Assembly (NCBI RefSeq): GCF_900101025.1
Contig: NZ_FMUH01000003.1
Span: 434,001 to 498,000 of the forward strand
DNA: 64,000 bases
DNA from: Klenkia marina
GTDB taxonomy: Bacteria; Actinomycetota; Actinomycetes; Mycobacteriales; Geodermatophilaceae
Direction of reading: 5' to 3'
The notes under the pieces: generated by a model
What the model saw: the letters and a program-made list of their open reading frames with translations, nothing else
The model's database searches: none
What the model was told of the DNA's origin: nothing
Position numbers and translations under genes: made by a program
Part shown: positions 1,434 to 63,039 of the stretch, piece by piece
Numbering within the stretch: position 1 is the first letter of the stretch
Layout: each line of letters starts with the position of its first letter

Positions 1434-1970
1434 TCAGGCGGGGCCGTGGACCAGGTGCACGACGCCGTTGCTGAGCTGGCTGACCCCCAGCAGCGTCAGC
1501 GGGGTGCGCGGCGCGCCCTCGGGGAACAGCCGGATCCCGCTGCCGACGGCGACCGGGTAGACGAACTGGTGCAGCTCGTCGACCAGGCCGTCGGCTAGCA
1601 TCGCCCGCACCAGCGTCGCGCTGCCGCTGACGTAGAGGTCGTGCTCGGCCTTCAGGGCCCGCAGCGCGTCGACGTCGTAGGGGAGCACGCTGGCCGGGCC
1701 CCACTGCGGGTCGGTGAGGGTGGCCGACACGACGTGCTTGGGGGTGTCGTTGAAGAACGGGGCGCCCGGGTCGTCCTCGACCGTGCGCGTGGACCACGCC
1801 GGGCCGAACATCTCGTAGGTGGTGCGGCCGAGCAGGATGCCGTCGGCGCCGGCGGTCAGCGTGCCGATGGCGGCGGCGAGGTCGTCGGGGAAGCCGTAGT
1901 CCATCGTCCACATCGGGGCGTCCACGACGCCGTCGACGGTGGTGAACTCGTGCACCTTGATGCTGCCCAT
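1434..1970 (-). CDS. Dihydrofolate reductase/RibD C-terminal family reductase
   Basis: A 178-residue cytoplasmic protein of the RibD C-terminal/DHFR-like superfamily, a group of NAD(P)H-dependent reductases mostly without assigned substrates. Family features seen are the opening strand IKVHEFTTVDGVVD, the nucleotide-site region GADGILLGRTTYEMF, and the dinucleotide-binding LYVSGSATLVRAMLADGLVDE near residues 115-135, followed by PVAVGSGIRLFPEG. The ATG at 1970 is preceded by GAGGAG at good spacing. It is transcribed alone, divergent from the HNH gene. It is not the housekeeping folA or ribD, so substrate and role are unknown. Confidence 0.8.
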   Translation of the reverse strand: MGSIKVHEFTTVDGVVDAPMWTMDYGFPDDLAAAIGTLTAGADGILLGRTTYEMFGPAWSTRTVEDDPGAPFFNDTPKHVVSATLTDPQWGPASVLPYDVDALRALKAEHDLYVSGSATLVRAMLADGLVDELHQFVYPVAVGSGIRLFPEGAPRTPLTLLGVSQLSNGVVHLVHGPA

Positions 1971-2037
1971 GGGGTGTCGCTCCTCGATCTGCGTGGTCGT
2001 CGCGGGGGAGCACCACCCCGCTCGCCAGGAATCATCG

Positions 2038-2433
2038 GTGCCGCGGGCGGACGATGGGGCGGTGACCTCCCAGCCCGACCGCGCCGCCCGGTTGGCGGCT
2101 GCGCTCGAGCGCGACGGGCCCACGTGCGTCTGGTGCGGGCGCGCCTTCGACCGCCACGTGCGACCGACCACCGAGCACGTGGTGCCGCGGGTGCGGGGCG
2201 GGCCGTCGTGGGCGGAGAACGAGGTCGCCGCGTGCGGTCGCTGCAACGGTGAACGCGGCCACCGCGGTGCCGTCGAGTGGTTGGCCGAGTGCCGGGCGCG
2301 GGGCTGGTCCCCGGACGCGCCCCGGGTGGCCCGGGCCCTGGAGTCGCTGGCCGCGGCGGTGGCCGAACGCGGCGGTCAGCGGCGGGCCCGGCCGCACCTG
2401 GACGCCCAGCTGCGACGACTGCGGGCCGGGTGA
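2038..2433 (+). CDS. HNH endonuclease family protein
   Basis: A small protein of about 131 residues built around one HNH/zinc-ribbon nuclease fold: CVWCGR, then [11 protein letters not shown] (the first catalytic His), [18 protein letters not shown] (the Asn, second CxxC pair and final His). Small single-domain HNH proteins of this kind are common in actinobacteria and usually uncharacterised; some act in DNA repair or restriction. I chose GTG 2038 because AGGA sits seven bases upstream. GTG 2062 ([11 protein letters not shown]) is a reasonable alternative start with a poor ribosome site. No methylase or other restriction partner is adjacent. Confidence 0.75.
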
Positions 2434-59298: not shown

Positions 59299-60000
59299 GT
59301 GCGGACGATCGGGTTGCTGGGCGGCATGAGCTGGGAGAGCAGCGCGCTCTACTACCGGTTGCTGAACGAGGGCGTGCGCGAGCGGTTGGGTGGCCTGCAC
59401 AGTGCACGGTGCGTGCTCCTGTCGGTGGACTTCGCCGGCATCGAGGAGCTGCAGGTGCGGGGGGAGTGGGACGCAGCCGGCGAGCTGCTGGCCCGCGACG
59501 CCGCCGCCGTGCAGGCGGCCGGGGCCGACCTCGTGCTGCTGTGCACCAACACCATGCACCGGGTGGCCCCGGCCCTGGAAGCGGTGCTCGACGTCCCGTT
59601 GCTGCACATCGCGGACGTCACCGCCGCGGCGGTGCGGGCCGCCGGGCTCACACGGGTGGGTCTGCTGGGCACGGCGTTCACGATGGAGCAGGCGTTCCTG
59701 CGCGACCGGCTGGCCGCCGGGGGGCTCGAAGTGGTGGTCCCCGGTGCCGTCGACCGCGCCGAGGTGCACCGGGTCGTCTACGAGGAGCTCTGCCGCGGGG
59801 TGGTCGAGCCGGGGTCGCGGCGCCGCTTCGTCGAGGTCGTCGGTCGCCTCGTCGGTGACGGCGCCCAGGGCGTGGTGCTCGGCTGCACCGAGATCGAGCT
59901 GCTGCTCGGTCCCGACGACGTCGACGTCCCGGTGTTCGCGACGACCGCACTGCACGTCGACGCGGCCCTGGACGCCGTCCTCGGTCCGGCCCCCCGGTAG
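59299..60000 (+). CDS. Aspartate/glutamate racemase family protein
   Basis: A 233-residue cofactor-independent racemase. The N-terminal IGLLGGMSWESSALYYRLLNE is typical of aspartate racemase-like proteins (YgeA type), and the two catalytic cysteines are in LLCTNTMH and VLGCTEIELL. The substrate could be aspartate, glutamate or another amino acid. GTG 59299 gives exactly the conserved N-terminus (VRTIGLLGG). It is alone between a divergent gene and def. Confidence 0.9.
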   Translation: MRTIGLLGGMSWESSALYYRLLNEGVRERLGGLHSARCVLLSVDFAGIEELQVRGEWDAAGELLARDAAAVQAAGADLVLLCTNTMHRVAPALEAVLDVPLLHIADVTAAAVRAAGLTRVGLLGTAFTMEQAFLRDRLAAGGLEVVVPGAVDRAEVHRVVYEELCRGVVEPGSRRRFVEVVGRLVGDGAQGVVLGCTEIELLLGPDDVDVPVFATTALHVDAALDAVLGPAPR

Positions 60001-60062: not shown

Positions 60063-60620
60063 GTGAGCGTCACCCCGATCCGGATCATGGGCGACCCCGT
60101 GCTGCGCACCCCCGCCGCGCCGGTCGTCGACTTCGACGCCGAACTGCGCCGGCTGGTCACCGACCTGACCGAGACCATGCACGCCGCCGGCGGCGCCGGC
60201 CTGGCCGCGCCCCAGATCGGCGTCGGCCTGCGGGTGTTCACCTGGTACGTCGACGGCGAGGTCGGCCACCTGGTCAACCCCGACGTCGTGCCGGTGGGCG
60301 AGGAGACCGAGGAGGACGCCGAGGGCTGCCTGTCGATCCCCGGTTTCCGGTTCGACTGCCGCCGGCACCTGTACGTCGCGGCCAGCGGGTGGAACATGCA
60401 CGGCGAGCCGGTCCGGGTCGAGGGGTCGCACAAGCTGGCCCGCGCCATCCAGCACGAGACCGACCACCTCGACGGCGTCCTGTTCGTCGACCGGCTCGAC
60501 GCGCAGGCCCGCGAGGCCGCGCTCTCCGTGCTGGCCGACGCCGAGTGGCAGGGCCACCAGGCATGGGTGCCGCAGGGTGAGCCGACGCCGCCCCCCGTCG
60601 TGAAGGTGAGCCCGCACTGA
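60063..60620 (+). CDS. def: Peptide deformylase
   Basis: A 185-residue metalloenzyme that removes the formyl group from nascent proteins. All three motifs are intact: [19 protein letters not shown] (Cys ligand) and QHETDHLDG (HEXXH). GTG 60063 fits a leaderless start. It forms a natural unit with fmt, which adds the formyl group, and its TGA stop overlaps the proposed CTG start of fmt as CTGA. Confidence 0.96.
60603..60619 (+). promoter_or_regulatory. Ribosome site and CTG start of fmt
   Basis: AAGGTGAG (60603-60610) resembles AAGGAGG and lies six bases before CTG 60617-60619. This site supports initiation at the CTG, since no ATG, GTG or TTG is in frame between the upstream stop (60578-60580) and residue 28 of the conserved protein. 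Confidence 0.7.
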
Positions 60621-61546
60621 AGCTGCTCTTCGCCGGTACGCCGGCGCCCGCCGTCCCGTCGCTGGAGGCCCTGCTGGCCAGCGACCACGAGGTCGTCGCG
60701 GTGCTCACCCGGCCCGACGCCCGCGCCGGGCGGGGGCGTCGCGAGGTGCGCTCGCCGGTCGCCGTCCGGGCCGACGAGGCGGGCATCCCCGTGCTGCAGC
60801 CGCCGTCGCCGCGCGACCCGGCGTTCCTCGAGCAGTTCGCCGCGCTCGGCGTCGACTGCGCACCCGTCGTGGCCTACGGCGCGCTGGTGCCGCCGGCGGC
60901 GCTGGCGGTCCCGCAGCACGGCTGGGTCAACCTACACTTCTCGTTGCTGCCCGCGTGGCGCGGTGCCGCTCCGGTGCAGCACGCGGTGATGGCCGGCGAC
61001 GAGGTCACGGGCGCGGCGACCTTCCGGCTCGAGCAGGGCCTGGACACCGGCCCGGTGTACGGCGTCGTCACCGAGCCGGTCGGCCCGCGCGACACCGCCG
61101 GCGACCTGCTCGACCGGCTCGCGGTCAGCGGCGCCGGCCTGCTGGTGGCCACCCTCGACGGCGTCGCCGACGGCTCGCTGCAGCCCGTGCCGCAGCCCGC
61201 CGAGGGCGTCTCGCTGGCCCCGAAGGTCGAGACCGCCGACGCGGCCGTCGACTGGTCGCTGCCGGCCCACGTGGTCGACCGCCGCGTCCGCGGGGTGACC
61301 CCGGCCCCCGGGGCCTGGACGACGTGGCGCGGCGACCGCCTGCGGCTGGGGCCGGTCGAGCCGCTGCCCACGTCGCTCGGCCTCGAGCCGGGGCAGCTGT
61401 CGGTGGGCCCCAGCGGGGTGCTGGTGGGCACCGGCCGCGGCTCGGTGCGGCTGGGCCAGGTGCAGCCGGCCGGCAAGAAGATGCTCCCCGCGGCCGACTG
61501 GGCGCGCGGCGCCCGGCCCGCGGACGGCGAGAGGGTGGGCGCGTGA
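60617..61546 (+). CDS. fmt: Methionyl-tRNA formyltransferase, apparent CTG start
   Basis: Formylates initiator Met-tRNA. The reading frame from CTG 60617 encodes (M)[19 protein letters not shown], the conserved Fmt N-terminus. The first ordinary start in frame, GTG 60701, would remove these 28 residues including the first strand and FAGTP loop of the formyl-folate domain. The catalytic Asn-His are in [16 protein letters not shown] and the Asp in [10 protein letters not shown]; the C-terminal OB-fold tRNA domain is complete. With the CTG start the protein has 309 residues, the normal length. The start overlaps def by four bases (CTGA), and the stop overlaps rsmB (GTGA). Confidence 0.9.
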
Positions 61547-63039
61547 CGCAGGGCCAGGGCCAGGGTGGCCGAGCACAGGGTGGCCCAGGACAGGGTGGCC
61601 GCGGGCAGGGTGGCCGACGACCGGCGCCGGCCGGGCGCCGCGGGCCGACCGGGCGACCGGCGGGTCCGCGCACGGTGCAGCACCGGCCCGAGAGCCGCCG
61701 GGGCGCCCCGGTCCTCGACGGCGCCCGGTTGACCGCCTACGACGTGCTGCACGGGGTCTCCTCCCGCGACGCCTACGCCAACCTGCTGCTGCCCCAGCTG
61801 CTGCGCGAGCGGGCCGCCGACCTGTCGCCCCGCGACGCCGCGTTCGCCACCCAGCTCACGTACGGCACGCTGCGGGCCACCGGCACGCTCGACGCGGTCC
61901 TGGCCGGGCTGGTGTCCCGCCCGCTCGGTGAGCTCGAGCCCGAGCTGCTGGACCTGCTGCGGCTGGGCGCCTACCAGGTCATCGACCTGCGGGTGCCGGC
62001 GCACGCCGCGGTGGACACCACGGTGGCCCTGGCCCGGGCGATCGTCGGCACGGGTGCGTCCGGCCTGGTCAACGCGGTGCTGCGCAAGGTCGCCGACGGC
62101 GGCGACCGGGCGGCGTGGGTGCAGGCGCTGGGCGCCACCGGTGACGAGCGGCTCTCGCTGCTCACCGACCACCCGCAGTGGATCATCGACGCGTGGCGCG
62201 GCGCGCTGGGATCCGACGCCGAGCTCGAGGACGCGCTGCTGGCCGACGACGAGGCCCCCGAGGTGCACCTGGTGGCCCGCTCGGTCGACCGGGCCACGCT
62301 CATCGCCTCCTCCGACGGCCTGCCCGGCCCCTGGTCGCCGTACGCGGTGCGCCTGGAGGGCGGCGACCCCGGCCTGCTGCCCGAGGTGCGCTCGGGCTCG
62401 GCGGGGGTGCAGGACGAGGGGTCTCAGGTCGCCGCGCTCGCGCTGGTGCGCGCCCCGCTGGACGGGCCGGACGCCGCGTGGCTGGACATGTGCGCCGGGC
62501 CCGGCGGCAAGGCCGCGCTGCTGGCAGCGGTCCGTCCCGAGGGCGTGCGGCTGACCGCGGCCGACCGCTCGGAGCACCGGGTGGGTCTGGTCGCGTCGGC
62601 GCTCCGGGACGCCGAGGACGTCGAGGTGCTGGTGACCGACGGCCGCACGGGTCCGTGGGAGGCCGGGTCGTTCGACCGCGTGCTGCTCGACGCGCCCTGC
62701 ACCGGGCTGGGCGCGCTGCGCCGGCGGCCCGAGGTGCGCTGGCGGCGCACGCCGGAGGACGTCGCCCCGCTGGCCGAGCTGCAGCGCGAGCTGCTCGACG
62801 CGGCGCTGGTCGCCGTCCGGCCCGGGGGCGTGGTGGCCTACGTGACCTGCTCCCCGCACACGGCCGAGACCGTCGACGTGGTGGCCGGGGTGGCCGACCG
62901 CGACGACGTCGAGGTGCTGCCGGTGGCCCCGCTGTTCCCCGGGGTCCCCGACGCGGCCCGGGGCGACGGTCTGCAGCTGTGGCCGCACCGGCACGGCACC
63001 GACGCGATGTTCGTCGCCCTCCTGCGCCGCCGCTCCTGA
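61543..63039 (+). CDS. rsmB: 16S rRNA (cytosine(967)-C(5))-methyltransferase RsmB
   Basis: A 498-residue SAM-dependent RNA methyltransferase. An unusual Gly/Gln/Arg-rich N-terminus of about 50 residues ([15 protein letters not shown]) is followed by a NusB-like RNA-binding domain ([20 protein letters not shown]) and the Rossmann domain: [14 protein letters not shown] binds [21 protein letters not shown] and [10 protein letters not shown] hold the two cysteines of the m5C mechanism. GTG 61543 overlaps fmt. It is the last gene of def-fmt-rsmB. Confidence 0.94.
61561..61615 (+). repeat. 15-bp periodic repeat at the 5' end of rsmB
   Basis: CAGGGTGGCC occurs four times at exact 15-base spacing (61561, 61576, 61591, 61606), each encoding Gln-Gly-Gly-(Arg/Pro)-x. 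It produces an RGG-like basic tail and can vary in copy number without a frameshift. Confidence 0.88.

Follow-up and report, generated by a model that had tools for sequence, protein, structure and literature searches.

Non-Canonical Start Codons in Genes of Translation Initiation

The gene infC, which encodes initiation factor IF3, begins with a rare AUU, AUC or AUA start codon and is known for autoregulation through that codon. Like infC, the fmt gene described here belongs to translation initiation and has retained a poor start codon across a lineage, in this case a CTG carried by at least 103 of the 112 genomes compared in the family Geodermatophilaceae. However, the codon and the gene are different, and autoregulation, a feature of infC, is only conjectural for fmt.

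Natural bacterial CUG starts share their codon with this fmt. According to one study, CUG makes up 0.024% of bacterial initiation codons and reaches 0.86% of the efficiency of AUG; in CUG complexes formed with a mutant initiator tRNA, the positioning of the mRNA is restored by IF2 (PMC11497404). In a second report, covering closely related genomes, a switch from AUG to CUG was recorded in 2 of 61,358 ancestral AUG starts (PMC5622118). A selection performed in mycobacteria gave no enrichment of CTG, even with a Shine–Dalgarno (SD) site in front of it (PMC4633059), and this failure counts against a CUG start of fmt. Work on E. coli describes other tRNAs joining initiation when Fmt is low (PMC7949028). 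In comparison with the natural CUG starts, fmt is a core gene whose CTG is shared by most of a family and appears again in further families of its order. Since CUG is nearly absent among bacterial starts and very inefficient in published tests, its retention by a core gene in more than 100 genomes suggests that bacteria can use it stably as a natural start.

Coupled def–fmt pairs with NTGA overlaps provide the third comparison. In them the fmt start overlaps the def stop by three bases, as it does here, but the overlapping codon in this case is CTG and not ATG or GTG. No description of a CTG/CUG start of fmt, or of a formyltransferase, was found among the papers listed from a library with few subscription journals. 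Translation genes that naturally begin at a non-canonical codon are already known; the CTG of fmt adds to them and is not a new kind of system.

The def–fmt Locus of Klenkia marina

The window, that is, the whole stretch of DNA analysed, comprises 64,000 nucleotides of K. marina (assembly GCF_900101025.1, contig NZ_FMUH01000003.1, positions 434,001 to 498,000). The peptide deformylase gene def occupies 60063..60620 on the plus strand (PF01327, 1.4e-42; NF001159, 180.3 bits against a cut-off of 125), and its final codon CAC is followed by TGA (60618-60620). Immediately upstream of def, at window 59365-59997, lies a gene of the Asp/Glu/hydantoin racemase family (PF01177).

The proposed start codon of fmt, CTG at 60617..60619 on the same strand as def, overlaps the def stop as CTGA (60617-60620), a start/stop overlap as expected of a translationally coupled pair. 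From this codon, fmt runs over 60617..61546 of the plus strand, with 309 codons and a TGA at 61544-61546. Six bases before the CTG, within def codons, stands the SD-like site AAGGTGAG (60603..60610, plus strand). Upstream, the fmt frame is closed by a plus-strand TGA at 60578..60580, present at the same place in one of 81 distinct family loci. The twelve codons from this stop to the CTG (GCC GAC GCC GCC CCC CGT CGT GAA GGT GAG CCC GCA) contain neither ATG, GTG or TTG nor the infC-type ATT, ATC or ATA, and the next canonical codon after the CTG is the plus-strand GTG at 60701..60703, 28 codons in. The coordinates given in the preliminary description (TGA 60578-60580, CTG 60617 and GTG 60701) and its six-base spacing were confirmed. 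A gene finder limited to ATG, GTG and TTG cannot place the fmt start correctly in this genome.

The product read from the CTG is identified as Fmt by TIGR00460 (206.4 bits against an equivalog cut-off of 201.5) and has both formyl transferase domains, N-terminal (PF00551, 2.8e-31) and C-terminal (PF02911, 3.8e-22). The Formyl_trans_N match begins at profile position 8 when translation is read from the CTG and at position 34 when it is read from GTG 60701. No second near full-length Fmt was found in the genome (4.2 Mb, 14 contigs), where the two other matches are partial, 32-35% identical, with E values of 4e-8 or worse. The Fmt proteins of Klenkia relatives, the nearest named ones, are 92-94% identical to that of the window.

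Downstream of fmt, an rsmB-like gene (61543..63039, plus strand; PF01189 and PF01029) has a likely GTG start that overlaps the fmt stop as GTGA; its scores for NF011494 (238 bits) and TIGR00563 (235.9 bits) are both below cut-off. Near its start, at window 61550-61620, a G-rich repeat of CAGGGTGGCC units gives a Gly/Gln-rich leader.

Conservation of the CTG in Geodermatophilaceae

Relatives were searched with a pattern consisting of CTG plus the conserved Fmt N-terminus, and the same pattern reversed, used as a control, gave 0 matches. The pattern was found in 102 of the 112 family genomes and in 92 of the 96 of good quality. One further genome, G090, reads CTG and was missed owing to a Phe to Leu change, which raises the counts to at least 103 of 112 and 93 of 96; the former is a lower bound, five genomes (G022, G102, G103, G117 and G119) being counted as negative on the pattern alone. 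Two genomes, G049 and G095, carry TTG at the fmt start and G012 carries ATG. In another genome of the family (G015, 95% complete) there is no clear fmt (best match E 5.3e-6): either the gene is truly gone or the assembly is incomplete there.

The preliminary description had fmt apparently beginning at CTG and proposed that the base at 60617 be compared in relatives. Its assignment is the best reading, and a sequencing error at 60617, the main refuting option that it had named, is excluded by the conservation.

A finer comparison took in 112 family loci; one (L065) had been missed by the pattern though it reads CTG, and the remainder reduced to 81 distinct stretches, 80 with CTG and one with TTG. 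The sequences share kinship, and locus counts are not numbers of independent events. From the CTG onward, residues are mostly fixed and base changes fall mainly at third codon positions, while residues of the fmt frame upstream of about −24 are variable. The approximately 18 bases just before the CTG are also nearly fixed, because def ends there and the ribosome site lies among them, so the coding boundary rests on the pattern of changes and not on conservation alone.

Six of the 81 loci, including that of the window, have no canonical start between the in-frame stop and the CTG. In the other 75, either a canonical in-frame codon occurs further upstream or the locus ends before any stop. As many relatives have an upstream in-frame GTG, over-extension of the gene start is as likely an annotation error there as truncation. 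The CTG at 60623 (third codon) was tried as a start and rejected, with CTC at that position in 63 of the 81 loci.

An SD match of at least five bases to the anti-SD complement, counted at a fitting distance from the codon, is present at 58 of 61 family CTG loci, versus 111 of 1129 internal CTG codons. The def valine codon in the SD core is GTG in 78 of the 81 loci, GCG in 2 and GTC in 1; over the last 150 codons of def, valine is encoded by GTC 776 times versus 613 times by GTG. In both TTG genomes (loci L171 and L172, which belong to two genera) this valine is encoded by GTC and not by GTG. The stronger start codon TTG goes with the weaker SD site, as if the former called for the latter, although n = 2.

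Candidate CTG Starts in the Order and Class

In the order, the CTG pattern was found in 102 of 397 genomes, 72 of them from Geodermatophilaceae (75 sampled) and 30 from outside the family. All 30 non-family matches were read at the site (29 loci, plus genome G037 as L022); one, L169, is cut by its contig. The CTG overlaps the def stop at ten non-family loci (L022, L142, L145, L146, L147, L162, L166, L167, L168 and L170), which belong to families f14, f9, f13, f5, f7, f12 and f10. A def gene, sought by motifs and tblastn in approximately 0.9 kb upstream, is absent at 13 CTG loci of the genus g15 and at L163 and L165.

In genus g15, the homologous fmt start codon is CTG in 13 of 17 genomes, ATG in 3 and GTG in 1, a CTG count that includes the ambiguous L155, L158 and L160, which have a canonical codon at −9 to −12. 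SD matches of at least four bases are present at 13 of the 13 CTG loci and of at least five bases at 9, compared with 65 and 15 of 210 internal CTG codons used as a control. In our view, no other sequence evidence speaks as strongly for CTG being a start as this interchange of CTG, ATG and GTG at a single homologous codon. Counting against a CTG start, only 2 of 13 CTG loci outside the family and g15 have an SD match of at least four bases, so coupling would have to carry initiation at the overlapping ones.

No canonical codon separates the stop from the CTG at ten non-family loci (L142, L147, L149, L150, L153, L157, L159, L163, L165 and L167), and in L150 and L159 the in-frame stop is 15 bases from the CTG. 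Set aside as clear CTG starts were L143, L144 and L164, with a canonical codon 6-12 bases upstream, and L161, with GTG at −21 and one of two matches in its genome. In family f10, the same fmt codon reads ATG, GTG or TTG (L246-L248, L250, L252-L259, L263 and L264) beside the CTG of L166-L170; some of these starts overlap the def stop and others lie some bases past it, with CTAGTG at the fmt start of L254, L259, L263 and L264.

In the class, the pattern was found in 4 of 388 genomes, namely the window and three others (L268-L270), which were rejected as clear CTG starts, having GTG or ATG 6-9 bases upstream. Stripped of its first base, the pattern matched 309 of 394 class genomes and 376 of 397 order genomes, and so was not blind in the class.

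A quick tree of 75 selected Fmt proteins, drawn without the three ambiguous g15 rows, requires the CTG/canonical label to change at least 16 times, 2 of them inside g15; 31 of the 72 inner branches are open, and gains are indistinguishable from losses. This shows only that the fmt start codon, as read from these sequences, changed repeatedly around lineages keeping CTG. The preliminary description had presented the CTG as an oddity of one gene in one genome. The CTG start stands, and on firmer ground than first stated, but the single-genome scope does not: it is a lineage trait with two arrangements, one in which the putative start overlaps the def stop and one free of def, mostly behind an SD-like site of its own.

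Proposed Mechanism and Alternative Explanations

Translation of fmt from CUG 60617 is considered highly probable. Coupling to def, the SD site or both would assist it, and the output of Fmt would be low. Ribosomes finishing def would meet the fmt start one base before the def stop, and AAGGUGAG would hold these terminating ribosomes there. Re-initiation at CUG would follow, probably with fMet-tRNA, the initiator tRNA pairing with CUG despite the mismatch at the first position. The poor codon would keep Fmt output low and tied to the translation of def. The weak start may be either harmless under coupling and simply inherited, or favoured since little Fmt is needed.

A simpler account, according to which the CTG is an unselected by-product of def ending in histidine and coupling hides its weakness, is possible but is given less than even weight. 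All 81 family loci end def with CAC or CAT followed by TGA, and histidine is encoded in def by 636 CAC versus 11 CAT; the first base of the fmt start is the third base of this last His codon and therefore stays C or T. However, tblastn finds no def in the roughly 0.9 kb upstream of the 13 CTG loci of g15, and families f7, f9, f10, f12 and f14 have Leu, Arg or Thr as the last def residue, so that GTG would be reachable there by a silent change. As fmt in g15 has no def before it in that stretch and yet keeps CTG in most genomes, the overlap alone does not explain the CTG. The constraint is compatible with re-initiation at CUG, and both may hold.

The remaining alternatives place initiation elsewhere or dispense with it. 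GTG 60701 is the earliest canonical codon in frame, but translation from it is hardly credible: Fmt would be 28 residues shorter, losing positions 8-33 of Formyl_trans_N and many residues that are invariant in the 81 family loci, where most of the variation affects third codon positions. A start further upstream, inside def, with an extended Fmt, would be permitted by an in-frame GTG in many relatives; a canonical codon occurs at −48 in 39 of the 81 loci. Such a start is impossible in the window, where TGA 60578 closes the frame, and at no position in the 24 codons before the CTG do more than 39 of the 81 loci have a canonical codon, with variable residues beyond about −24, which makes this reading very unlikely. 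The meeting of the def and fmt frames at CTGA could also suggest a −1 frameshift at the def stop, yielding a Def–Fmt fusion without separate initiation. This is scarcely more plausible than the GTG 60701 start, considering that the site has no slippery run, that the SD GTG is kept in 78 of 81 loci and that g15 has CTG without def upstream.

Initiation at CUG might have a further role. Fmt makes the formyl mark used by initiation, which raises a question of feedback that is approachable by one base change. Selection could have made the CUG start a sensor of formylation, with a response to scarce fMet-tRNA that differs from that of AUG, a speculative idea that we regard as improbable on the sequence data. 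CUG would be used more if open P sites admitted Leu-tRNA and others (negative feedback; PMC7949028), or less if it depended on the recognition of formyl-Met by IF2 (a switch; PMC11497404). If the sensor were real, a start codon would couple Fmt to the very product that it makes, throughout a bacterial lineage.

Translation Machinery and Start Codons in the Same Genome

An unusual initiator tRNA or ribosome was considered as the cause of the CTG and rejected, the tRNA-Met genes and the two 16S stretches examined being ordinary. Two tandem tRNA-Met genes, which we take to be initiators by their sequence, have the anticodon CAT and keep the GGG/CCC anticodon stem intact. The 16S 3´ end GGATCACCTCCTTTCT is present in the genome; in the search for an unusual ribosome, nothing odd was found in this 3´ end or in the 16S stretch GGAGTCGCTAGTAATCG, whose place within the 16S is presumed.

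In a coding scan, the 458 kb surrounding the window were set against 400 kb from each of the genomes G010 and G005. Among 425 candidate ORFs, 202 had a coding pattern of changes, 87 of them in both comparisons, and 154 could be tested because sufficient codons were aligned ahead of their first canonical start. An upstream coding signal was detected in 7 of the 154, and fmt alone gave it in both comparisons; the scan misses short extensions and spans about a tenth of the genome. The six other candidates are weak, each in one comparison only, and five were judged by eye; for one of the weak candidates (window 1436-2246, minus strand) no NCBIfam match was found. Earlier versions of the scan were noisy, and one candidate list did not include fmt.

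Just beyond the window, the infC gene of this genome (G000:C5:558046, locus L267) has no ATG, GTG or TTG between an in-frame TGA and the conserved N-terminus. Its start is most likely an ATC behind AGAGGAG.
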